NCBI RefSeq assembly: GCF_000260985.4
Contig: NC_017857.3
Coordinates: forward strand, 434,001 to 498,000
Reading direction: 5' to 3'
DNA from: Methylophaga nitratireducenticrescens
Lineage (GTDB): Bacteria; Pseudomonadota; Gammaproteobacteria; Nitrosococcales; Methylophagaceae
Length of the DNA: 64,000 nt
The position numbers and the translations under genes are program-made. Under the pieces are notes generated by a model. The model was not told the origin of the DNA. It searched no databases and saw only the letters and a program-made list of their open reading frames with translations. This document shows positions 12,135 through 49,354 of this stretch, in pieces (within the stretch, counting starts at the first letter, position 1; every line of letters starts with the position of its first letter).

Positions 12135-12148
12135 TTGATCAGGATCAA
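12135..12148 (+). promoter_or_regulatory. Perfect FNR box upstream of narXL
   Basis: TTGATCAGGATCAA matches the FNR/Anr consensus TTGAT-N4-ATCAA at all ten positions. It ends 92 bases before the narX start. If it works at -41.5 the transcript would start near 12183. Confidence 0.85.
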
Positions 12149-24287: not shown

Positions 24288-24982
24288 TGAGTCTGCACAA
24301 TTTTCTCTATGGAGTTTATCCGTATATTGCTTTGAGTTTGTTTTTGTTCGGTAGTCTTATGCGGTTTGACCGTGAGCAATACACATGGAAAAGTGATTCC
24401 AGCCAATTGTTATCAAAGAAAAATCTGCGACTAGGCAGTAATTTATTCCATATCGGCATTATTGCCATTTTCTTTGGACATGCGGTCGGGTTGTTAACAC
24501 CACATAGTGTTTTCACGGCAATCGGAGTCTCCGATATGGCCCATCAGATGATTGCAATCTGGGCCGGATCAATTTTTGGGACTTTATGTTTGATTGGTGG
24601 TGCAATGCTGTGGATCCGCCGTATGTTTAATCCACGTGTCTCAGCTGCAAGCCGTGGCTCAGATAAGTTTGTGCTGAGCTGGATCATGGTTACCCTGATC
24701 ATTGGAATGTCAACTATTCCAGTATCGATTGGTCATGCTAATGCTGGCGATCCGGGCGTGATGATTGCTCTGGCTGAATGGGTGCAAAGTATCGTTTATT
24801 TGCGACCTGAACCAGCTTTACTGATGGGTGTGGACACCATTTTCAAAGTACACCTGTTTTTCGGTATGACAGTATTTCTGGTGTTCCCGTTTACCCGTTT
24901 GGTACATATCTGGAGTGCGCCAATTGGTTACTTAGCAAGACCGTATCAAATTGTTCGCAGTAAACGTAAGTTTAAGTCTTGA
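24287..24982 (+). CDS. narI: NarI1, cytochrome b subunit of nitrate reductase 1
   Basis: A 231-residue membrane subunit with five helices that oxidises quinol and binds two b haems. Histidines in NLFHIGIIAIFFGHAVGLL and in KVHLFFGMTVFLVFPFTRLVHIWS correspond to the four haem ligands of E. coli NarI. It anchors NarGH at the cytoplasmic face. The start overlaps the narJ1 stop. Confidence 0.96.
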   Translation: MSLHNFLYGVYPYIALSLFLFGSLMRFDREQYTWKSDSSQLLSKKNLRLGSNLFHIGIIAIFFGHAVGLLTPHSVFTAIGVSDMAHQMIAIWAGSIFGTLCLIGGAMLWIRRMFNPRVSAASRGSDKFVLSWIMVTLIIGMSTIPVSIGHANAGDPGVMIALAEWVQSIVYLRPEPALLMGVDTIFKVHLFFGMTVFLVFPFTRLVHIWSAPIGYLARPYQIVRSKRKFKS

Positions 24983-24998
24983 TATAAAAGGCAGTCAT

Positions 24999-25685
24999 AT
25001 GCGAGATGTTGGAAAGTTTCTTCAGGGATTTAGACGGTTCCAGCAACATTATCTGGGAGAGCAGCACGCACTGTTTGATCAACTGCTTACAGAAGGTCAA
25101 CGTCCGCGAGCTCTGATGATTGCTTGTTGTGATTCTCGCTGTGATCCGGCATTGCTTACGGATTGTGAGCCTGGTGATATGTTTGTGGTACGGAATGTCG
25201 CCAATCTGGTGCCTCCCTATGATCAGGCCAGATTGTTTGCCGCTACAAGTTCTGCCATTGCTTTTGCCGTTAGCAGTCTTGAAGTAGAGCATGTCATCAT
25301 TATGGGACATGCGCATTGTGGTGGTATTCAGGCATTAATGACACACAAAACGCCTGAGAATGATGAATCGAAATTGATTTCACAGTGGATTGGAATTGCC
25401 GAATCAGCTCGTGAGCAGGTGTTGCAACAATTGCCCAATAAAACGCCTGAGGTTCAGGCGCATGCCTGCGAGCAGGCCTCAATACTGATCTCGCTGGAAA
25501 ATCTCCGGTCGTACCCATGGATTAGCAAACGTGTAGAGCTGGGCAAACTGGCTTTACACGGTTGGTATTTCGATATGGATAAAGGTGAATTACTTCAGTA
25601 TCAGCAAGAGAGTGGCAAGTTTGAAGTGCTTGTGGCAAATGGCGACAAAAGACCGATAAGCCCTTTTTCTAGCTCCAAAAGATAG
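24999..25685 (+). CDS. can: Beta-class carbonic anhydrase
   Basis: A 228-residue enzyme interconverting CO2 and bicarbonate. The zinc motif CCDSR (C43, D45) and the downstream GHAHCGG (His and Cys ligands) are intact. The ATG at 24999, with AAAAGG before it, is used in place of a longer frame that runs into narI1. It starts 17 bases after narI1, so it is probably part of the nar1 transcript, an uncommon addition to a nar operon. It may balance CO2 and bicarbonate during respiration on one-carbon compounds; that is inference. Confidence 0.9.
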   Translation: MRDVGKFLQGFRRFQQHYLGEQHALFDQLLTEGQRPRALMIACCDSRCDPALLTDCEPGDMFVVRNVANLVPPYDQARLFAATSSAIAFAVSSLEVEHVIIMGHAHCGGIQALMTHKTPENDESKLISQWIGIAESAREQVLQQLPNKTPEVQAHACEQASILISLENLRSYPWISKRVELGKLALHGWYFDMDKGELLQYQQESGKFEVLVANGDKRPISPFSSSKR

Positions 25686-25753
25686 CCCTTTATAGCAGCA
25701 AATACATGGGGGCAGGCCTTAACGTTGAAAATTCTTAAAGTAAGGATATCATC

Positions 25754-27013
25754 ATGAACATACACTCCCGCCCATCGGCAATAACAATGCTGGCAAGTCT
25801 AATCAGTGTTTTATTTGTACCGCAGGCACAGGCAGAACAAGACAATCTTCTTGAAGCGATAACGGAAGGTAACGTCAGCTTTTCAGCACGTATGCGTTAT
25901 GAGTCAGTAGAGCAGGACAATGCTTTGAAAGATGCCGATGCGCTGACGTTACGCACTACCTTGGGTTATAAAACAGGGGCTTTCCACGGTTTCAGTGGCT
26001 TTATTGAGTTTGAGGACGTGTCTGAAATTGGTTCAGACAATTTTAACAGTACAACCAATGACGAAACAGAGTATTCGGTTGTGGCCGATCCGGATAGTAC
26101 CGAAGTTAATCAGGCTTATCTGTCATATAACGGTTTTGATACGGAAGTAAAAATTGGTCGCCAGGAAATCACCTATCGTGATGCACCTTTTCATCGTTTT
26201 ATTGGTAACGTGCTATGGCGTCAAAATCATCAATCATTTGATGCTTTGAGCTTCAGTAATACCTCGCTGCCTGATACCAAAATCAGCTACGCTTACCTCA
26301 ATAAAGTCCATACCATCTTTGGTCATGACCGTGATGCTGCCGCAATCTTTGTTAAAGATGGCGATGTCGATATGAACAGTCATTTGTTTAATATTCAATA
26401 CAGTGGTCTGCCGATCGGCAGCCTGGAAGGTTATAGCTATCTACTGGATTATTCTGATGCACCAGATGACAATAAGTTTTCAACCGAAACCTACGGGTTA
26501 CGGTTAAGTGGTGTGCAGGCTGTTAATGAAACAACAAAACTGATTTATAGCGCTGAATACGCAACCCAAGACGATTTTGCTGATGGTGAAATGGATCGGC
26601 AAGATTACTATCTGTTTGAACTGGGCGGTAAATATAAGGGCTGGCTGGCCAAAGTGTCTTATGAAATGCTGGAAGGTGATGGTACAGACAGCTTTCAAAC
26701 ACGTCTGGGCACCAACCACGCTTTCCAGGGCTGGGCTGATCAATTTTTGGCTACGCCCGATGTAGGCCTGGAAGATCTATTCTTTACGGTTACCGGCAGT
26801 GTTTTTGGTGCCAAATTGGTTGTGGTTTATCATGATTTTGAAACCGATAAAGGCAGTTTGGATGCCGGTAATGAACTCGACATTCTGTTAGAAAAAACCT
26901 TTAAAGAGCATTACACTTTAGGTGTGAAATATGCCGACTACAATGCCGATAAAGAATATGCATCATTGGTGGACACCGAAAAGTTCTGGGTTTATGGACA
27001 AGTTAAATTCTAA
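25754..27013 (+). CDS. Outer-membrane beta-barrel porin
   Basis: A 419-residue protein with a signal peptide (cleavage likely after AQA near residue 27). The mature part alternates hydrophobic and polar residues in strand-length blocks (for example RMRYESVEQDN, TLRTTLGYKTGAFHGFSGFIEFED, NQAYLSYNGFDTEVKIGRQE) and ends in aromatic VYGQVKF, the usual barrel C-terminus. It resembles alginate-export or OprD-like specific porins in general shape only. AAGGA precedes the ATG. As the last gene of the nar1 unit (68-base gap) it could let nitrate cross the outer membrane; the substrate is not shown by the sequence. Confidence 0.75.
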   Translation: MNIHSRPSAITMLASLISVLFVPQAQAEQDNLLEAITEGNVSFSARMRYESVEQDNALKDADALTLRTTLGYKTGAFHGFSGFIEFEDVSEIGSDNFNSTTNDETEYSVVADPDSTEVNQAYLSYNGFDTEVKIGRQEITYRDAPFHRFIGNVLWRQNHQSFDALSFSNTSLPDTKISYAYLNKVHTIFGHDRDAAAIFVKDGDVDMNSHLFNIQYSGLPIGSLEGYSYLLDYSDAPDDNKFSTETYGLRLSGVQAVNETTKLIYSAEYATQDDFADGEMDRQDYYLFELGGKYKGWLAKVSYEMLEGDGTDSFQTRLGTNHAFQGWADQFLATPDVGLEDLFFTVTGSVFGAKLVVVYHDFETDKGSLDAGNELDILLEKTFKEHYTLGVKYADYNADKEYASLVDTEKFWVYGQVKF

Positions 27014-27620: not shown

Positions 27621-27634
27621 TTGATCCAGATCAA
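27621..27634 (+). promoter_or_regulatory. Perfect FNR box upstream of the pqqA-pqqD-pqqE cluster
   Basis: TTGATCCAGATCAA fits TTGAT-N4-ATCAA at all ten positions. The nearest gene in either direction is pqqA, 111 bases downstream; the upstream porin gene ends about 600 bases away and reads towards the box. This implies anaerobic induction of the cluster. Confidence 0.8.
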
Positions 27635-27745
27635 TTTTTATTTGGCTTAAGGAAAATCCTGAGGAAGAGCCTTATGACAACAGAGTATGGTTAACTCCAC
27701 TGGCTGAATCGTCAGGCAGTAATTACTTAAATGAGGAGATTTACT

Positions 27746-27820
27746 ATGCAATGGAAAGATCCAGCATATTGTGATTTACGCTTAGGCTTTGAAGTTACAG
27801 CGTATGTTTTTGTTCGTTAA
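27746..27820 (+). CDS. pqqA: PqqA-like 24-residue precursor peptide
   Basis: A 24-codon gene with a good GAGGAG site at 27733-27738. The product keeps the PqqA core: LRLGFEVTAY at residues 11-20, with Glu16 and Tyr20 spaced exactly as the two residues that PqqE cross-links in PQQ synthesis. It begins MQWKDPAYCD, where known PqqAs have a similar WxxPAxxD start, and has an unusual Cys9 and a YVFVR end. It stands alone before a hairpin, then pqqD and pqqE. The gene is short enough to be missed by automatic annotation. Confidence 0.88.
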   Translation: MQWKDPAYCDLRLGFEVTAYVFVR

Positions 27821-27826
27821 TTAAAC

Positions 27827-27874
27827 TTATAAACAGTGAGAGAGTGGAAACAATCACTCTCTCTCTGTTTATAA
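27827..27874 (+). promoter_or_regulatory. 20-bp hairpin between pqqA and pqqD
   Basis: Arms at 27827-27846 and 27855-27874 pair over 20 positions with a single T-T mismatch and an 8-base loop (GAAACAAT). It starts seven bases after the pqqA stop. There is no U tract, so a transcript-stabilising or processing stem that keeps precursor mRNA above enzyme mRNA is more likely than a simple terminator. Confidence 0.65.
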
Positions 27875-27912
27875 CAAATCATATATTGAAATATATAAAT
27901 TGGATTTGTTAC

Positions 27913-28191
27913 ATGGTTAAAAATATAACGCCGGAAAATATTGTTGAATTAGCACCACTCTACCTGTTTCGATGGGAAGAACCACAGCAGGCCCATATCC
28001 TGCTCTATCCTGAGGGTGTGGTAAAGCTCAATGAAACGGGGGCGGCAATAATAAAGCATTGTGATGGCACCCATACGGTTAAAGAAATCAGCACACTGTT
28101 AAGTGATCTCTATACCACTGATGTCAGTGAAAGTGTTCAAAAATTTTTGGAGGTGTCCTATGCCAAAGGATGGATCAGAATCAAGTCTTGA
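27913..28191 (+). CDS. pqqD: PqqD, peptide chaperone (RiPP recognition element)
   Basis: A 92-residue protein of the PqqD family, which binds the PqqA peptide and presents it to PqqE. The sequence from LAPLYLFRWEEPQQAHILLYPEG through VKLNETGAAIIKHCDGTHTV to the C-terminal helices follows the family. The ATG at 27913 is used; an earlier GTG at 27844 lies within the hairpin loop region and would add an unrelated hydrophobic leader. It overlaps the pqqE start by 32 bases. Confidence 0.88.
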   Translation: MVKNITPENIVELAPLYLFRWEEPQQAHILLYPEGVVKLNETGAAIIKHCDGTHTVKEISTLLSDLYTTDVSESVQKFLEVSYAKGWIRIKS

Positions 28192-29320
28192 TCATTCAGA
28201 ATTAACGCTGGATGGTTTAGGGATACCGATGTGGCTCACGCTAGAGCTGACCTATCGCTGTCCTTTACATTGCCCTTGGTGCAGCAACCCTTTGAATTTC
28301 GATAAATTCAAAAATGAGCTTTCAACAGAAGAGTGGAAAAAAGTTCTACGTGACGGCCGAAAAATGGGGGCATTACAGCTGGGATTTACCGGTGGTGAGC
28401 CTATGCTGCGAGATGATATTGAAGAACTCGTTAGAGAAGCAGATGGGCTCGGGTATTACACTAACTTGATTACCTCAGGCGTTGGTTTGACGCCCGAACG
28501 TTTGAAGGCATTGAAAGCCGGCGGACTCAAGCAGATACAGCTTAGCGTGCAATCCAGTGATCGCGAGTTATCACACCAATTAGTTGGTGTTGATGTTTTC
28601 GATCAAAAAATGGCGGTAGCAGAAAATATTAAAGCCGAAGGGTTCCCTATGGTTTTAAATATCCCTATCTGTAAACAAAACATTGATCAAACACGCGCTA
28701 TGCTGGAAATGGCCGAAAGGCTTGAGGTTGAATATATCGAATTTGCCAATATTCAATATTACAACTGGGCATTATTGAATCGCGATGAGTTTCTGCCTTC
28801 TCTCGACCAGTTAAAAGCTGCCGAAGCTGTTGTTGCAGAATATCGCGAACGGCTTGGCAACAAAATGCAAATTTATTTTGTTATTCCCGATTACTTTGAT
28901 GATCGTCCAAAAGCCTGTATGAATGGTTGGGGAAATATTCATTTGACCATCGGACCGGATGGTGCTGCTCTTCCCTGTCAGGAAGCGCGCGTAATCAAAG
29001 GACTTGAATTCCCCAATGTCCGGGATGAGTCTTTGGATTGGATCTGGAATAACTCTCCAGTATTTAATGCTTATCGTGGCGATGACTGGATGAAAGATCC
29101 GTGTAAAAGCTGTGATGAAAAAGAACAGGATCATGGTGGTTGCCGATGCCAGGCTTTTCTGCTGACAGGTGATGCTGCTAACACAGATCCTGTGTGTTCT
29201 AAATCACCGATGCACGATGTTGTTGGATCTTGTGTAGCCAACTCCACCAATCCCCATAGAGTTGAAAAACCACTGGTTTTCCGTAAAAAGGGTGCAATCT
29301 CAACCGATTTTCTTCGATAA
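28160..29320 (+). CDS. pqqE: PqqE, radical-SAM enzyme cross-linking Glu and Tyr of PqqA
   Basis: A 386-residue radical-SAM/SPASM enzyme. The SAM cluster motif is CPLHCPWC (C34, C38, C41) and TGGEPMLRDD follows. The C-terminal auxiliary-cluster region contains CMNGWG, CQEARVI, CKSCDEKEQDHGGCRCQAF and a late Cys, as in PqqE. The ATG at 28160 has GGAGG six bases upstream and lies inside the end of pqqD. The usual neighbours pqqB and pqqC are absent. The enzyme would form the carbon-carbon bond between Glu16 and Tyr20 of PqqA. Confidence 0.92.
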   Translation: MPKDGSESSLDHSELTLDGLGIPMWLTLELTYRCPLHCPWCSNPLNFDKFKNELSTEEWKKVLRDGRKMGALQLGFTGGEPMLRDDIEELVREADGLGYYTNLITSGVGLTPERLKALKAGGLKQIQLSVQSSDRELSHQLVGVDVFDQKMAVAENIKAEGFPMVLNIPICKQNIDQTRAMLEMAERLEVEYIEFANIQYYNWALLNRDEFLPSLDQLKAAEAVVAEYRERLGNKMQIYFVIPDYFDDRPKACMNGWGNIHLTIGPDGAALPCQEARVIKGLEFPNVRDESLDWIWNNSPVFNAYRGDDWMKDPCKSCDEKEQDHGGCRCQAFLLTGDAANTDPVCSKSPMHDVVGSCVANSTNPHRVEKPLVFRKKGAISTDFLR

Positions 29321-29438
29321 AAGCTTATGCCGGGCTCATAACTGATTGATGGTCGCATCATGTTGTTATGGGCCTATCACGATACTTTTTTGTTTACCGA
29401 AACGATTACGGTAATAATTTTTGACGCATGGAGTTCTG

Positions 29439-29933
29439 ATGACACTTACTGCATCTATAGATCTTTTCGCCAGATGGCTACATCTGATGGGCATACTTGT
29501 ATGGATGGGCCATAATTATGCCAATGTGATCCAAAATCCTCGGTTTAAACCGGCACAACCCAGCGACCCTGGATCAATGCTGGCCGCAATGCAACGCGAA
29601 CACGGCACTTTCCGTTATGCCTCACTGGTAGTCTTGGCTACAGGCGTTTATATGCTGTGGTATAGAGGCTTATTAATGGATGCTTTAACGCTATCAGATT
29701 CAGCTTTATACATTGGCATAGGGGTCTGGTTGGGAATTATCATGGTTCTCAATTTATGGTTTGTTCTTTGGCCACATCAGAAAAAAGTTCTTGGTTTTGT
29801 TCCTGCTGAGGATAATGAGCGTATTCGTTGTTCTCGCATCACTTTTCTATCCTCTAGAACAAACTCTGTCCTTTCAGTGTTCACCTTGTTTTTCATGATT
29901 GCCGGTGCTCACGGATTAATTTTGTTTTCCTAA
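29439..29933 (+). CDS. Integral membrane protein resembling the PuuD (urate oxidase N-terminal) membrane domain
   Basis: A 164-residue protein with about four helices. The ATG at 29439 has GGAG five bases before it. The start FARWLHLMGILVWMGHNYANVIQNP and the middle REHGTFRYASLVVLATGVYMLW resemble the membrane domain of PuuD-like proteins, which are usually fused to a cytochrome c domain that is missing here. Membrane histidines (H in WLHLMG, H in WMGHNY, H in REHG) could bind haem. Position between pqqE and the aminotransferase suggests an electron-transfer role for the pathway; that is inference. Confidence 0.6.
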   Translation: MTLTASIDLFARWLHLMGILVWMGHNYANVIQNPRFKPAQPSDPGSMLAAMQREHGTFRYASLVVLATGVYMLWYRGLLMDALTLSDSALYIGIGVWLGIIMVLNLWFVLWPHQKKVLGFVPAEDNERIRCSRITFLSSRTNSVLSVFTLFFMIAGAHGLILFS

Positions 29934-29949
29934 GCAGAGCTATCTCACT

Positions 29950-31050
29950 ATGTATAATTTTTCTGCTGGCCCGGCTCAGCTTCCCAAAGAAATATTAAAT
30001 AAGGCTAAAGAAGATCTGCTGGATTGGCATGGCTCTGGTATGTCAGTAATGGAGATGCCCTTTACCTCGGATGAATATAAAGCTATCAGTGAGAGAGCCC
30101 ACAACGATCTGCGTAAATTGATAAACCTGCCGGATGATTATCATATTTTGTTTCTACAAGGTGGGGCTTATGCCCATTTTGCCCTTGTCGCTATGAATTT
30201 ATTGGGTCAGAAACAAACCGCTGATTACATACAGACGGGTCATTGGTCGACACGAGCGTTGAATGAAGCCAGACGGTATGGCGATATCAATATAGCCGCC
30301 AGTTCTGTGTCTTCAGGTTTTAACCGCATTCCTCCCTATGAGCAGTGGCAACTGAACCCGGAGGCGGCATATTGTCATATCACCACCAATGAGACCGCTA
30401 ACGGGGTTCAGTTTCATGATATTCCCAAGCTACCCATCCCTCTGGTGGCAGATGTCACTTCTGATTTTTTGACCCGCCAATTGGACGTTTCACAATTTGG
30501 TCTTATCTATGCCAGTGCTCAGAAAAATATTGGACCAACGGGATTAACGATCGTCATTATCCACAACACGCTATTGAATCAAGCAATGGAAATGGTGCCG
30601 ACAGTCTTTAACTATGGCCGTCAGGCAAGCAACAACGGGCGAGTTAATACTCCACCGACTTACAGCGTCTATATCGCCGGATTGATGTTCTCATGGCTGC
30701 TAGAGCAAGGTGGAATAAAAGCAATAGAACAAGCCAATCAGCATAAAGCTCAGCGACTTTACGAATTCATCGACAATAACAGTTTTTATCAATGCTCTGT
30801 TGATCCATCTGCACGCTCTATCGTCAATGTTTGTTTTGAATTAACCGATATGAGCCGGACAGAAGACTTTCTCAGTGAGGCGAGTAAAAAAGGCTTTGTT
30901 AACCTAAAAGGGCATGGCATTCGAGGCGGAGTTCGGGTCAGCCTTTATAATGCAATGCCCATTGAGGGTGTTGATGCTTTGGTTGCTTTTATGAAAACTT
31001 ATTCGGCCAGCCAATCCCAAACACGGTTGAAAAAATCTTTCCATGGATAA
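29950..31050 (+). CDS. SerC-like class V aminotransferase with altered substrate site
   Basis: A 366-residue PLP enzyme clearly of the phosphoserine aminotransferase family, from YNFSAGPAQLPKEIL to RVSLYNAMPIEGV. The PLP lysine is K192 in SAQKNIGPTG. Against my recollection of E. coli SerC, the substrate-phosphate motif SHRGKEF is replaced by PFTSDEY (residues 37-43), the Arg in GGGRGQF by Tyr74 in GGAYAHF, and the HR pair in KGHRVVGG by HG. The carboxylate-binding Arg in GGVRVS remains. An amino acid or keto acid without a phosphate group is therefore the likelier substrate. It follows the membrane protein after 16 bases. Confidence 0.8.
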   Translation: MYNFSAGPAQLPKEILNKAKEDLLDWHGSGMSVMEMPFTSDEYKAISERAHNDLRKLINLPDDYHILFLQGGAYAHFALVAMNLLGQKQTADYIQTGHWSTRALNEARRYGDINIAASSVSSGFNRIPPYEQWQLNPEAAYCHITTNETANGVQFHDIPKLPIPLVADVTSDFLTRQLDVSQFGLIYASAQKNIGPTGLTIVIIHNTLLNQAMEMVPTVFNYGRQASNNGRVNTPPTYSVYIAGLMFSWLLEQGGIKAIEQANQHKAQRLYEFIDNNSFYQCSVDPSARSIVNVCFELTDMSRTEDFLSEASKKGFVNLKGHGIRGGVRVSLYNAMPIEGVDALVAFMKTYSASQSQTRLKKSFHG

Positions 31051-31065
31051 CAGATCATAGATCAG

Positions 31066-31938
31066 ATGGCGGCGAACTATACAAGTTATCAATACAAACG
31101 AGCCTATTTAATCGCACATATACTTAGCCGGATAAACAGGTTTTTTCCACATTCACCGCTATCGTCCGCAACTGTAGAAATAATGGGGATACGTTTTCCT
31201 AATTCGGTGGGACTTGCCGCTGGCTTTGACCGGTATGCCAGATTTTTGCCTTATACTCAACGGGTAGGCTTTGGCTTTATTGAAATTGGCACTATTAATG
31301 TAAATGCGTCAAAAACGCCTGACAGTGCCGTCCTGGCAACATTAGATAACCTGAAAAAAGCTACGAAGTACTCCAAAAACAGTGTGCAACGCCGGGGAAT
31401 CAGTCTGGGCAGTCTTCACGATGGATTAACGAAACAAACGGAAGCCGACTTTGCAAACGGCATGATGTTATTTTGGCCGTACGCGGATTACCTTGTCATT
31501 AATTTGAGCCGACCGAATAGCCCCACACGAAATCCTTCTCTTGAACCCAAAGCGTTAACGTCATTTTTAACTAATATCAAGCGCGATCACAGCCAATTTG
31601 CTTCGGAATTTCGCCGTTACGTGCCGATCGTGGCAAAAGTTGCTATCGACCACGAGTGTAATGAGCATATTCCTGAAATCCTGTTATCGTTAAAAGCGCA
31701 GCAGTTTGATGGTGCAGTAATTGCTTTTGAGAATTGGCCAGATATCAGTCGGGTAGCAGACTATGTGAGTCAATTAAAATCGACGAATGAAGATTTTCCA
31801 TTAATTGTCGTTGGAGGCATACGATCTTGCGATGATATTGAGCAATTGATGGCAGCTGGCGCATCCCTGGTCCAGGTTTTTAGTAGCTTGATAACGCAAG
31901 GTCCATTACGAATGCAAAAAATGATTTCAAATTATTGA
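31066..31938 (+). CDS. Dihydroorotate dehydrogenase-fold flavoprotein with altered active site
   Basis: A 290-residue protein with the class 2 dihydroorotate dehydrogenase fold, shorter than the usual about 336. FMN-site segments remain: SVGLAAGFDRYARF, GFIEIGTINV, VAKVAID, IVVGGIRS and GASLVQVFSSLITQGP. The catalytic Ser of NxSSPN is Arg149 (NLSRPNSP), the orotate-binding Asn of the NRMGFNN loop has no counterpart, and the Asn-Thr pair after VIA is Phe221-Glu222. It should not make orotate. The N-terminal 40 residues still look like the membrane-associating helices of the quinone-linked class. It is the last gene of the pqq-linked run, ahead of the IS5 element. Confidence 0.75.
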   Translation: MAANYTSYQYKRAYLIAHILSRINRFFPHSPLSSATVEIMGIRFPNSVGLAAGFDRYARFLPYTQRVGFGFIEIGTINVNASKTPDSAVLATLDNLKKATKYSKNSVQRRGISLGSLHDGLTKQTEADFANGMMLFWPYADYLVINLSRPNSPTRNPSLEPKALTSFLTNIKRDHSQFASEFRRYVPIVAKVAIDHECNEHIPEILLSLKAQQFDGAVIAFENWPDISRVADYVSQLKSTNEDFPLIVVGGIRSCDDIEQLMAAGASLVQVFSSLITQGPLRMQKMISNY

Positions 31939-31959: not shown

Positions 31960-32840
31960 GGGCTTGTTGATCTTTGATGGTTATTTTTTGAGCAGCATGG
32001 TGACTCGGTATAATGCGTTTCACAACAAACAAAAATTACACCAAATCACCATGCCAAGACTTATGTTAACCGACCAACGGTGGCAAACGCTATCCAGACT
32101 GATGTATCAAAGTGGCCGTATCTACAACAAACCCGAGCACAGAATGACGCTCGAAGGGATCTTGTACCGAATGCGAACCGGCTGCCCTTGGCGGGATTTA
32201 CCCCGAGAGTTTGGGCAATGGAGTACCGTTTTCCGACGATTTAACTTATGGTCGAAGAAAGGTCTATTGGAAAGGCTATTTAAAGCATTATCGCGCAGCA
32301 CGGACATGGAATGGTTGTTCATTGATGGCAGTATCGTCAAAGCCCACCAACATAGCTCTGGCGCAGCCTCTCCCAAAGGTGAAGCGATAGGTCAAAGCCG
32401 GGGCGACCATTCCACCAAAATCCATTTGGCGGTGGGGAGTTATGGTCTGCCAGTCCATGTCGAGTTATCAGGCGGTCAGGTCAATGATATCGTCCATGCT
32501 CAAAGCCTGATGGATGCCGTTTGCGCCGCTGACAAGGTGATTGCTGACAAAGGCTATGATAGTGAAGTCTTCAGGAATGAAATCGAAAGGCAAGGCGTAA
32601 AACCAGTCATTCCTCGACGTAAACATAGCCGTGTTGGCAATGAAAACATGGACTGGAGTTTGTATCGGTATCGACATCTGGTTGAGAATGCCTTTGCCAG
32701 AATCAAGCATTTCCGGGCGATTGCAACGCGTTACGAGAAGCTCGAACGGAATTATTACAGCATGCTCATGCTGGCGTTTACTATGATGTGGCTGCCAATG
32801 TGGGTTGATTAATTTTTGTACAGCAAAGATCAATAGCGGC
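31960..32840 (+). mobile_element. IS5-family insertion sequence
   Basis: The element of about 0.88 kb has imperfect terminal inverted repeats: TTGATCTTTG at 31967-31976 and its complement CAAAGATCAA at 32824-32833, each preceded by a less conserved GGC-rich end. The outer limits are approximate and I cannot fix the target duplication. It separates the pqq-linked gene run from nosR and probably inserted there recently, since its transposase is intact. Confidence 0.7.
32051..32812 (+). CDS. IS5-family DDE transposase
   Basis: A 253-residue transposase. The ATG at 32051 (MPRLMLTDQRWQ) is preferred; the frame is open from a TTG at 31964 in the terminal repeat. DDE residues are visible as FIDGSIVKAH, VIADKGYDSE and HLVENAFARIKHFR. 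The N-terminal YRMRTGCPWRDLPREFG is typical of the family. No frameshift or stop is present, so it may be active. Confidence 0.9.
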   Translation: MPRLMLTDQRWQTLSRLMYQSGRIYNKPEHRMTLEGILYRMRTGCPWRDLPREFGQWSTVFRRFNLWSKKGLLERLFKALSRSTDMEWLFIDGSIVKAHQHSSGAASPKGEAIGQSRGDHSTKIHLAVGSYGLPVHVELSGGQVNDIVHAQSLMDAVCAADKVIADKGYDSEVFRNEIERQGVKPVIPRRKHSRVGNENMDWSLYRYRHLVENAFARIKHFRAIATRYEKLERNYYSMLMLAFTMMWLPMWVD

Positions 32841-47343: not shown

Positions 47344-47415
47344 TAGATGGGCAACTAGCCATCATTTACGCATTAGAAACTTATATTATGTTGTTACAAA
47401 AATATGGAGGAAAAA

Positions 47416-48411
47416 ATGGAGCTGGTCTGTCCTGCGGGGAATATCTCAATGTTAAAAGCCGCAGCCGAGCATGGTGCTGACGCAATCTATATCGGTTTCA
47501 AAGATGACACTAATGCCAGGCATTTTGCCGGCTTGAATTTTCAAGATGGTGCCGCACAGAAAGCCGTTAACTATGCACATGATCACGGTAGCCAGGTCTA
47601 TGTCGCTATTAATACCTATCCACAACCGACCGGTTGGTCGAGATGGCAAAAAGCAGTTGATGTCGCAGCAGATATAGGTGTTGATGCTTTAATTGTTGCT
47701 GATATTGGTGTGCTGGCCTATGCGGCAGAAAAATATCCGCATCTGGCGTTGCATTTGTCGGTACAGGGTTCAGCTACCAACGCTGAGGCATTACGATTTT
47801 ATCAGCAACAGTTTGCTATTCGCCGTGCCGTCATACCGCGTGTATTGTCGATGGCGCAGGTAAAACGATTGGCCGAAGACAGTCCTGTTAAGCTTGAAGT
47901 ATTCGGTTTTGGCAGCTTATGCGTCATGGTGGAAGGGCGTTGTTTATTATCGTCTTATGCAACCGGTGAATCCCCAAATACTTGCGGTGCCTGCAGTCCG
48001 GCGAAAGCTGTGCGCTGGGTGGAAACGCCGGCAGGCACAGAGAGCCGATTAAATGAGGTATTGATTGACCGTTTTGCAGTGGGTGAAAAAGCCGGCTATC
48101 CGGTGGTCTGTAAAGGACGGTTTAATGTTGACGGCCATACCTATCATGCCTTGGAAGAGCCCACCAGTTTAAATACGTTGGCATTATTGCCTGAGCTGTT
48201 GGCAGCAGGGGTCAGTGCCATAAAAATAGAAGGTCGTCAGCGCAGTACCGCATACATTACCAAGGTGGTCAAAGTCTGGCGGGAAGCGATAGATAGTTGT
48301 CAGTCAAACCCGCAGTCGTATGCGGCAAAAGCACAGTGGATGCAGGCGCTTGCTGATGTATCTGAAGGTACACAAACCACTCTGGGCGCTTACAACCGCC
48401 CCTGGCAATAA
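47416..48411 (+). CDS. ubiU: UbiU, U32-family iron-sulfur protein of O2-independent ubiquinone synthesis
   Basis: A 331-residue protein of the U32 family, exactly the length I recall for E. coli UbiU. The ATG at 47416 has GGAGG seven bases before it; the ATG at 47404 contains that site and is rejected. MELVCPAGNISMLKAA at the start and the cluster cysteines (VEGRC, SPNTCGAC, VVCKGRF) are intact. With UbiV it binds [4Fe-4S] clusters and supports anaerobic ring hydroxylation. First gene of ubiUV. Confidence 0.93.
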   Translation: MELVCPAGNISMLKAAAEHGADAIYIGFKDDTNARHFAGLNFQDGAAQKAVNYAHDHGSQVYVAINTYPQPTGWSRWQKAVDVAADIGVDALIVADIGVLAYAAEKYPHLALHLSVQGSATNAEALRFYQQQFAIRRAVIPRVLSMAQVKRLAEDSPVKLEVFGFGSLCVMVEGRCLLSSYATGESPNTCGACSPAKAVRWVETPAGTESRLNEVLIDRFAVGEKAGYPVVCKGRFNVDGHTYHALEEPTSLNTLALLPELLAAGVSAIKIEGRQRSTAYITKVVKVWREAIDSCQSNPQSYAAKAQWMQALADVSEGTQTTLGAYNRPWQ

Positions 48412-48448
48412 ATAAAGTCAGGTCAAGCACAAGACTTTTGGAGTTTTC

Positions 48449-49354
48449 ATGCGTTTATCATTAGGAGCAATTCAGTATCTGTGGCCTCGGCAAACAGTGG
48501 AGGATTTTTATCAATTACAGCTGAAGAGTCCAGTTGATATTATTTATCTGGGTGAAACTGTGTGTGCCAAAAGAAGGTTTCTGAAAACAGCAGAATGGAT
48601 TGAACTGGCGAAGCAACTGGCACAATCAGGAAAGCAAATCGTGCTGTCTACACTGACTTTGATTGAAGCCAGATCCGATATGGCAAGCGTCAAACGTTTA
48701 TGTAACAACGGTGACTTATTGGTAGAAGCGAATGACATTGGTGCTGTGCAATTAATGGCCGAGCAGACGCTTCCTTTTGTCGGCGGGCCCAGTTTAAATA
48801 TCTACAATGCCCATACACTTAAACAGTTATATAAGCAGGGTTTAATCCGCTGGGTCATGCCGGTTGAACTGGATGCGGAAACACTGAAAGCGATATTGGC
48901 TGATGCGGAATCCTTGGGTCTGGGTGGAAAGATTGAAACTGAAGTTTTCTCATTTGGTCGCATGCCGCTGGCTTATTCAGCCCGTTGTTTTACCGCCCGT
49001 TATCGTCAGCTGCCCAAGGATGACTGTCAACTTGTGTGTCAGGATTATGCTGAAGGCTTGCCAATGGATAGTCAGGAAGGTCAAGCGTTTTTCACCATTA
49101 ACGGTATTCAGACACAATCAGGCCGCATTCAGCATTTATTGCCGCATTGGCAACAAATGCAACAGATTGGTGTAGACATTATGCGGCTTAGTCCTCAGCC
49201 CCACGATATGAATGAGATAGTTCAGCGCTATGCCCAGGTCCTAAATGGTGAATCAAAGAATACGGAGGTTGAATCCTGGCTGAACGCTCCTGCATGTGAC
49301 GGTTATTGGAGTGGTCAATCCGGGATGGACTATATTGCAGTTGTTGCTGAATAA
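48449..49354 (+). CDS. ubiV: UbiV, U32-family partner of UbiU
   Basis: A 301-residue U32-family protein. The start MRLSLGAIQYLWPRQTVEDFY and cysteines in GETVCAKRRF, SARCFTARYRQ and DDCQLVCQDY fit UbiV. It forms the UbiUV complex for O2-independent hydroxylation of the ubiquinone ring. It follows ubiU after 37 bases. Beyond its stop an 8-bp stem (TTCTTGCG 49415-49422 with CGCAAGAA 49437-49444) lies between the convergent ubiV and cytochrome c genes. Confidence 0.92.
   Translation: MRLSLGAIQYLWPRQTVEDFYQLQLKSPVDIIYLGETVCAKRRFLKTAEWIELAKQLAQSGKQIVLSTLTLIEARSDMASVKRLCNNGDLLVEANDIGAVQLMAEQTLPFVGGPSLNIYNAHTLKQLYKQGLIRWVMPVELDAETLKAILADAESLGLGGKIETEVFSFGRMPLAYSARCFTARYRQLPKDDCQLVCQDYAEGLPMDSQEGQAFFTINGIQTQSGRIQHLLPHWQQMQQIGVDIMRLSPQPHDMNEIVQRYAQVLNGESKNTEVESWLNAPACDGYWSGQSGMDYIAVVAE

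Follow-up and report, generated by a model that had tools for sequence, protein, structure and literature searches.

A pqqADE cluster with three conserved downstream genes in Methylophaga nitratireducenticrescens: a candidate low-oxygen version of the pyrroloquinoline quinone pathway

We find that a gene cluster of Methylophaga nitratireducenticrescens probably encodes a low-oxygen version of the pathway to pyrroloquinoline quinone (PQQ), with PQQ itself as the product; the chemistry after PqqE and the identity of the product are what we infer from comparison of genes and residues. The cluster lies in a stretch of 64,000 nucleotides (positions 434001-498000 of a genome that consists of a single contig of 3,135,000 bases; hereafter, the window), where it spans 27621, the start of an FNR box, to 31938, the end of the last gene, with every gene on the + strand. 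It consists of pqqA-pqqD-pqqE followed by genes for a membrane protein (MemU), a phosphoserine-aminotransferase-like enzyme (SerCL), and a dihydroorotate-dehydrogenase-like protein (DhoL); we refer to these last three as the trio and to the whole as the trio cluster. Direct support comes from gene order and its conservation, enrichment of FNR boxes, the remodelled active sites of the trio, and, in many genomes, the use of one pqqE together with pqqBC. The existence of the trio cluster as a conserved unit is real and clearly non-random, and these observations make an anaerobic role in PQQ synthesis more likely, short of proof.

The cluster opens with a perfect FNR-type box (TTGATCCAGATCAA, 27621..27634, + strand) that starts 125 bp upstream of the start of pqqA (27746..27820, + strand). 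The encoded peptide of 24 residues, MQWKDPAYCDLRLGFEVTAYVFVR, ends in GFEVTAYVFVR, has a cysteine at position 9, carries Glu16 and Tyr20 in the Glu-x3-Tyr arrangement, and scores 32.1 bits against TIGR02107 (cut-off 20). It is followed by pqqD (27913..28191, + strand; 76 bits against TIGR03859, cut-off 46) and by pqqE (28160..29320, + strand; 505 bits against TIGR02109, cut-off 381), which encodes a radical S-adenosylmethionine/SPASM enzyme. Each of the three proteins exceeds its curated PQQ-biosynthesis cut-off; PqqD is under the cut-off of a second PqqD model, NF002535 (85 bits versus 101). The two reading frames of pqqD and pqqE overlap by 32 nt, which is an ordinary overlap, and a frameshift between them was rejected. 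MemU (29439..29933), SerCL (29950..31050), and DhoL (31066..31938) complete the unit, all on the + strand. Profile searches and the box count thus confirm the inventory given by the original prediction, which was made from the sequence alone: an FNR box, a 24-residue PqqA with Glu16 and Tyr20, PqqD, PqqE, and three co-directional genes. Its description of the cluster as lacking pqqB and pqqC holds for the cluster itself, in which profile searches found neither PqqB nor PqqC, and fails for the genome. A complete canonical pqqA-B-C-D-E, for which it had proposed a search, is present at about 877-882 kb, adjoining a PQQ alcohol dehydrogenase; pqqB and pqqC are at about 879-881 kb, with a second pqqA, pqqD, and pqqE. 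Within this genome, the PqqE of the cluster and the canonical one share 53% identity.

PQQ synthesis has been stated to require O2, which limits methanol dehydrogenase under anoxia (PMC11102522). Growth on methanol with nitrate is nevertheless seen in Hyphomicrobium denitrificans (PMC12423496), which leaves two possibilities, carry-over of PQQ and an O2-free route to it. The original prediction did not recall the gene set as a described unit, and in this it was mistaken. In its treatment of these clusters, PMC12423496 (Mol Microbiol 2025) names six species that carry a 'pqqAED-puuD-serC-pyrD' cluster (H. denitrificans, H. nitrativorans, Halomonas sulfidovorans, Stutzerimonas stutzeri, Azoarcus sp. 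DN11, and M. nitratireducenticrescens JAM1), notes that these accompany canonical clusters in denitrifiers, and advances the same hypothesis as speculation: they would encode an ending of the PQQ pathway that needs no O2. It gives the pqqE genes of JAM1 as Q7A_453 and Q7A_868, and the Methylophaga pqqE that it names is very probably the pqqE of the window cluster. The same source reports that transcription of the second-copy pqq genes of Hyphomicrobium is lower in two regulator mutants, together with that of denitrification genes, and that no PQQ is made anaerobically by Klebsiella or Pseudomonas aeruginosa, whose pqq genes are all canonical. Among open-licence PMC papers (titles, abstracts, and selected passages) we found no other that describes the trio cluster as a unit. 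Both the cluster and the hypothesis of O2-independent PQQ synthesis are therefore already published, as speculation, and await experiment; what we add to section 2.9 of PMC12423496 is the residue analysis, the FNR-box count, the PqqE tree, and the census of pqqB and pqqC.

To describe the distribution of the cluster, we scanned one genome per species with the window PqqE as query and kept 80 loci, the best 80 of 95 relatives (L numbers denote loci and G numbers genomes). Trio neighbors were scored by profile search of six-frame segments, clustering of longest open reading frames (ORFs) being unsuited to GC-rich loci with their antisense ORFs. Across these loci, which include near-copies (PqqE is identical in L052 and L053) and were counted without correction for kinship, MemU was found downstream of pqqE in 78/80, SerCL in 76/80, and DhoL in 72/80, with order and strand constant. 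Linkage of the last three genes to pqqADE in other genomes, the first of the points on which the original prediction could have been refuted, thus holds in nearly all of the 80 loci. DhoL is missing in eight: five stretches end too early (L014, L023, L030, L040, and L061), L035 lacks it although sequence remains, and in L083 and L086 the trio is wholly missing, with pqqB and pqqC right after pqqE. Identity to the window protein falls to about 48% for MemU, 34% for SerCL, and 24% for DhoL, so the conserved order is not due to recent copying. The hosts are beta- and gammaproteobacteria and one Rhodospirillales metagenome-assembled genome (MAG). Many of the host genera are known for denitrification or perchlorate reduction (Thauera, Dechloromonas, Denitromonas, and Azoarcus) and others for methylotrophy (Methylotenera, Methyloversatilis, and Methylobacillus). 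A tblastn search of plasmids with MemU matched two records, both alphaproteobacterial and both carrying the trio cluster, DhoL-like frames included. On plasmid pHY1 of Methylovirgula sp. HY1 a Crp/Fnr gene adjoins the cluster, and narHJI is about 16 kb away; on a mobilizable plasmid of Acidibrevibacterium fodinaquatile the cluster is followed by an M48 metalloprotease gene. The Methylovirgula plasmid also carries, close to its pqq cluster (L136:14971-16550), a CbpA/CbpB pair of modified peptide and radical S-adenosylmethionine enzyme. In a whole-class sample of 274 genomes, cluster-type MemU (>250 bits) occurred in only 4, too sparsely for statistics, and the 91 other matching genomes scored at most 157 bits.

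The PqqE and PqqA of the cluster are of their own type. Our PqqE tree comprised 44 cluster proteins (42 of the 79 cluster rows and two from plasmids), two trio-less proteins, and 21 others (20 from cluster-bearing genomes and the canonical one of the window genome). A branch with 100/100 support separated all 21 others from the cluster PqqE. The trio-less PqqE of L083 and L086 nested on the cluster side, that of L086 on a long branch, a placement that reads as two losses of the trio. Of 81 loci (the 80 and the window), 67 yielded a PqqA of the type GFEVTAYVx[VT]R, and the canonical PqqA of 21 genomes is of the form GFE[VI]TMYxxxR or K. In the genome of L012, two canonical-type PqqA peptides lie about 280 bp apart (L158:2444-2800).

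The FNR box points to anaerobic regulation of the cluster. We counted boxes within 300 bp upstream, with random windows from the same loci as the expectation, in the 80 loci and the window; L063 was skipped for its short upstream stretch, leaving 48 pqqA-first clusters (including the window) and 32 pqqE-first clusters, a group that includes L011, L023, and L039, whose contigs start inside or just before pqqD, and loci with pqqA further off. A perfect box was present in 19/48 pqqA-first clusters (0.5 expected), a box with at most one mismatch in 26/48 (1.5 expected), and one with at most two in 38/48 (7.7 expected). As a same-genome control we compared the cluster with the canonical pqqA in the window genome and in 20 of the 28 that gave more than one match for pqqE, three of these 21 clusters being pqqE-first. 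A perfect box was found upstream of the cluster in 12/21 and upstream of the canonical pqqA in 0/21 (p=5e-5; Fisher tests here and below treat genomes as independent), which bears out the FNR link that had been claimed for the cluster; at two mismatches the counts were 18/21 and 4/21. Anaerobic control of the trio cluster, as judged from its upstream sequence, is supported by this comparison. Among the 28 genomes with several pqqE matches, 13 had a box with at most one mismatch. The Acidibrevibacterium plasmid cluster has a perfect box at -108. The window as a whole holds four perfect boxes, against a mean of 0.15 in 100 shuffles (largest 2). Besides that of the cluster, these are at 12135 (before a kinase-like gene), 41413 (before an nrdD-like gene), and 49990, the genes being named by eye.

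The company that the cluster keeps also points to anaerobic respiration. In the window it sits between the nar1 and nos genes. In the window's family, which we take to be Methylophagaceae (57 genomes), cluster-type MemU (262 bits or more) was found in 7 genomes, and narG in 5/7 of these versus 4/50 others (p=6e-4); these counts include fragments (9/57 genomes with narG), and matches above cut-off only (7 genomes) gave 4/7 versus 3/50. A second sample, 180 genomes from the family to which G024 (Thauera sp. 2A1) belongs, presumably Rhodocyclaceae, contained 17 carriers of the trio cluster. Here narG was present in 9/17 cluster genomes versus 7/35 pqqC-bearing genomes without the cluster (p=0.025).

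The link of the trio to PQQ itself comes from genomes that make do with one pqqE. We searched pqqE at E<=1e-90 in 48 genomes, 46 of them with a trio cluster, and 18 of the 46 gave a single match, the cluster's own; among the 17 of these 18 that were examined for pqqC, it was seen in the genome or locus of 15, and none in G039 and G481. In L035, L038, L060, and L077, pqqB-C-A-D-E-MemU-SerCL form one gene run, which extends to DhoL except in L035. One PqqA-PqqE pair thus serves PqqBC and stands with the trio, so the trio would act on the PQQ precursor; genomes whose only pqqE is the cluster's argue that it sits on the PQQ pathway. PQQ-alcohol dehydrogenases were above cut-off in 14/14 genomes tested, and in the Thauera-family sample pqqC was present in 13/17 cluster genomes versus 35/163 others (p=9e-6). 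In G009 (L018), a second pqqE is partial and under cut-off, with pqqC present and pqqB undetected; its canonical set may be decaying or misassembled.

These data bear on a rival reading, in which the trio makes from the cross-linked Glu-Tyr another redox cofactor, as the original prediction had also suggested, or a PQQ derivative, for use at low oxygen. A PqqA type and a PqqE clade distinct from the canonical ones would fit such a product, as would three extra enzymes that include a pyridoxal phosphate (PLP) enzyme not obviously needed for PQQ. This reading is weakened by the genomes in which one pqqE serves both pqqBC and the trio: cluster-type PqqA stands beside pqqBC in single-pqqE loci and must there also be a PQQ precursor. 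With the single-pqqE genomes and the uniform presence of PQQ-alcohol dehydrogenases against it, we consider a different cofactor improbable.

Several of our results weigh against an O2-independent PQQ pathway. Chief among them is the census of pqqC, which was above cut-off in 48 of 50 trio-cluster genomes (a genome-wide search that covered 50 of the 80 locus genomes); the two exceptions are G002, with a fragment at a contig edge, and G039, with none. The trio is thus usually an addition to pqqBC and rarely if ever alone, and replacement of the O2-dependent steps, which would fit the anatomy of the proteins, is a candidate role for it. Where a genome gives more than one pqqE match, the trio is not always separate from pqqBC: in eight such genomes the cluster is pqqE-first, and two of these (L053 and L065) carry pqqBC on the same stretch. 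FNR boxes with at most one mismatch were found in 0/32 pqqE-first clusters (0.45 expected) and 0/18 single-pqqE genomes, boxes at two mismatches in 2/32 pqqE-first clusters versus 3.1 expected, and none within 400 bp of the Methylovirgula plasmid cluster. Two of the seven cluster genomes of the window's family lack narG, one of them with nosZ (G335) and the other, G339 (88% complete), without it, and nosZ was not discriminating in the Thauera-family sample (15/17 versus 28/35 in pqqC-bearing genomes without the cluster, p=0.70). An aminotransferase is not obviously needed, both nitrogens of PQQ being those of Glu and Tyr. Our search of the open-licence PMC literature found no biochemistry or mutant of the trio.

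The same counts favor the view that the trio is an accessory to the PqqB/PqqC pathway, serving precursor release, electron disposal, by-product repair, or export, with O2 still needed: pqqC accompanies the trio in nearly every genome tested, gene runs join pqqBC and the trio, and single-pqqE clusters have no FNR box. Yet in all 20 genomes that gave several pqqE matches and whose cluster starts with pqqA, neither pqqB nor pqqC was on the fetched stretch of the trio, and it is the cluster copy apart from pqqBC that tends to bear the FNR box. Also opposed to this view are four of the 17 cluster genomes of the Thauera-family sample, G039 (L056), G452 (L076), G478 (L061, Thauera aminoaromatica S2), and G481 (L080), in which PQQ dehydrogenases are present and neither pqqC (at E<=1e-30; for G039 also at E<=1e-3) nor pqqB (at E<=1e-10) was detected. 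Overall, pqqB was found in 9 of 14 genomes, in two as fragments, and was undetected in these four and in G009. Among the four, G039 alone combines pqqA, pqqD, and pqqE with the trio, its PQQ dehydrogenase being separated from them by a TonB receptor gene and a kinase gene; the other three have neither pqqA nor pqqD on the fetched stretch. All four are drafts or MAGs, which tempers the absence of pqqB and pqqC, and we regard it as suggestive. On balance an accessory role seems unlikely to us, and a low-oxygen version of the PQQ pathway remains the reading that we prefer.

We then examined the residues of the trio in alignments of SerCL from 75 loci and the window, DhoL from 70 and the window, and MemU from 77 and the window. 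SerCL matches PF00266 and scores 460 bits against TIGR01364 (cut-off 443.6). The equivalents of Escherichia coli Lys198, Trp102, Thr153, Asp174, and Gln197 are present in 76/76, among them the PLP lysine and the PLP-stacking tryptophan (K192 and W99 in the window protein); that of Arg335, the carboxylate arginine, is present in 74/76 (two gaps) and that of His328 in 75/76. By contrast, E. coli His41 is replaced by Phe in 76/76, Arg42 is never Arg and mostly Thr or Ser, and Arg329 is kept in 9/76. The same pairs in the yeast enzyme, His45-Arg46 and His361-Arg362, are reported to bind phosphoserine (PMC10049462). SerCL is thus changed in three of the four phosphoserine-binding His/Arg residues and, to judge by these positions, should not hold phosphate.

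DhoL, which resembles class 2 dihydroorotate dehydrogenases, matches PF01180, and among the 25 NCBIfam matches listed for it none is above cut-off. Its AlphaFold model (predicted local distance difference test score, pLDDT, 92.4) matches E. coli dihydroorotate dehydrogenase 1f76 by Foldseek with E 4.9e-18, and the equivalents of the flavin mononucleotide (FMN)-site residues Asn172, Lys217, and Gly296-Gly297 are present in 71/71; we predict an FMN-binding barrel. In the E. coli enzyme we take Ser175 to be catalytic and Asn111, Asn177, and Asn246 to bind orotate. The Ser175 position is Ser in 3/71 DhoL, the window protein having Arg149 there; those of Arg102 and Asn111 fall in a gap in 71/71; Asn177 is kept in 2/71, the window protein being one; and at the position of Asn246, Asn is not among the seven commonest residues.

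MemU has 164 amino acids and a model of four long and two short helices (pLDDT 91.6). It matches PF06181 (Urate_ox_N, the PuuD membrane domain) above gathering score, with the best stretch covering only profile positions 160-240 of 295; no C-terminal cytochrome c domain, other Pfam match, or NCBIfam match was found. His15, His25, and His55 are present in 78/78 cluster proteins and His158 in 77/78 (one gap). In 29 paralogues from other genomes, His15 is found in 29/29, His158 in 25/29, and His25 and His55 in 0/29, with Arg59, Trp107, Trp111, and Arg140 common to 29/29. No PDB entry matched MemU by fold (E<=0.001) or by sequence (E<=1), so the suggestion of haem comes from the positions of the histidines alone.

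This anatomy, together with the conserved linkage, bears on whether the trio might be housekeeping-like passengers, that is, a phosphoserine aminotransferase, a dihydroorotate dehydrogenase, and a urate-oxidase-like protein. SerCL does exceed the TIGR01364 cut-off, and the plasmid records annotate serC, urate hydroxylase PuuD, and dihydroorotate oxidase. The order is fixed across large distances, however, and phosphoserine-binding, orotate-binding, and catalytic residues are lost in most or all family members. The passenger explanation, largely refuted by the linkage, is rejected as very improbable, and serine supply was rejected as a role for the trio.

For a low-oxygen pathway to PQQ we envisage the following course. 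An FNR-family regulator would switch on the operon through the box, and PqqD and PqqE, as is known of their families, would cross-link Glu16 to Tyr20 of the dedicated PqqA, from which a protease would free the cross-linked Glu-Tyr. The trio would then carry out, with no use of O2, the work for which PqqB and PqqC use it: SerCL may act through PLP on the alpha-amino-acid part of the intermediate, oxidising or activating the alpha-carbon; DhoL may take hydride or electrons from the ring system by means of FMN; and MemU, with two His pairs for haem or substrate, may pass electrons to a quinone or cytochrome of the respiratory chain. Water would supply the missing oxygen atom of PQQ, and PQQ would serve methanol and other alcohol dehydrogenases during denitrification. 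The fullest form of this proposal is a complete second, O2-independent finish to PQQ built from three repurposed enzymes (a SerC-derived PLP enzyme, a DHODH-derived FMN dehydrogenase, where DHODH is dihydroorotate dehydrogenase, and a two-His-pair membrane protein that is possibly a dihaem carrier), with water as oxygen source, carried also on plasmids, and the sole route in some bacteria, for which the genome of L056 is a candidate; we hold it only tentatively, as a possibility with the odds somewhat against it.

The surroundings of the cluster in the window are as follows. Between the nar1 operon and the trio cluster, 24951-27013 contains a gene for carbonic anhydrase (PF00484) and another that matches Opr porins weakly. 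Directly after DhoL and before nosR is a transposase-like ORF (31964-32812; IS5 type, by eye), which at E<=1e-20 matched nothing in the 80 related loci. Relatives of the nosR-like gene (named by eye) are on the fetched stretch of 6/80 related loci, and those of the ubiU/ubiV-like genes at 47404-49354 (also named by eye) on that of 11/80; the recurrence of ubiU/ubiV near trio clusters is perhaps a repeated neighborhood of O2-independent cofactor genes. PMC11526790 maps two nar operons within a 66.6-kb denitrification island, and its main text does not mention pqq. For strain GP59, PMC12530212 records a c-di-GMP riboswitch adjacent to a pqqA. Rfam gave nothing above gathering score in the window or in L009 and no plausible match near either pqqA of the genome; upstream of the canonical pqqA (L009:4300-5000) there was no c-di-GMP riboswitch match even at E<=1.

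The trio cluster supplies named genes and diagnostic residues for the question of anoxic PQQ synthesis. The cluster, found in the same order in many Proteobacteria and on two plasmids, one bearing nitrate reductase genes, may let its hosts finish PQQ without oxygen, and if this is true, PQQ-dependent alcohol oxidation reaches more widely into anoxic habitats than assumed.

Set beside known systems, the window cluster is the same unit as the pqqAED-puuD-serC-pyrD cluster of H. denitrificans and others, as that is described in PMC12423496. With canonical pqqABCDE it has in common PqqD, PqqE, and the Glu-x3-Tyr of PqqA, and it differs in the lack of PqqB and PqqC, in a PqqE on its own side of the tree, and in the end of PqqA, which is TAYVx[VT]R in trio clusters and TMYxxxR or K in canonical ones. 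MemU matches the membrane domain of PuuD, the cytochrome c urate oxidase, in part only, and no cytochrome c domain was detected in it. SerCL keeps the family, the PLP lysine, the stacked tryptophan, and the carboxylate arginine of SerC, the phosphoserine aminotransferase, whereas the two His-Arg phosphoserine pairs are not retained intact even though the TIGR01364 cut-off is passed. Finally, DhoL has the predicted fold and the FMN-site residues of class 2 PyrD, but in most of the family it lacks the catalytic serine and the orotate-site asparagines.

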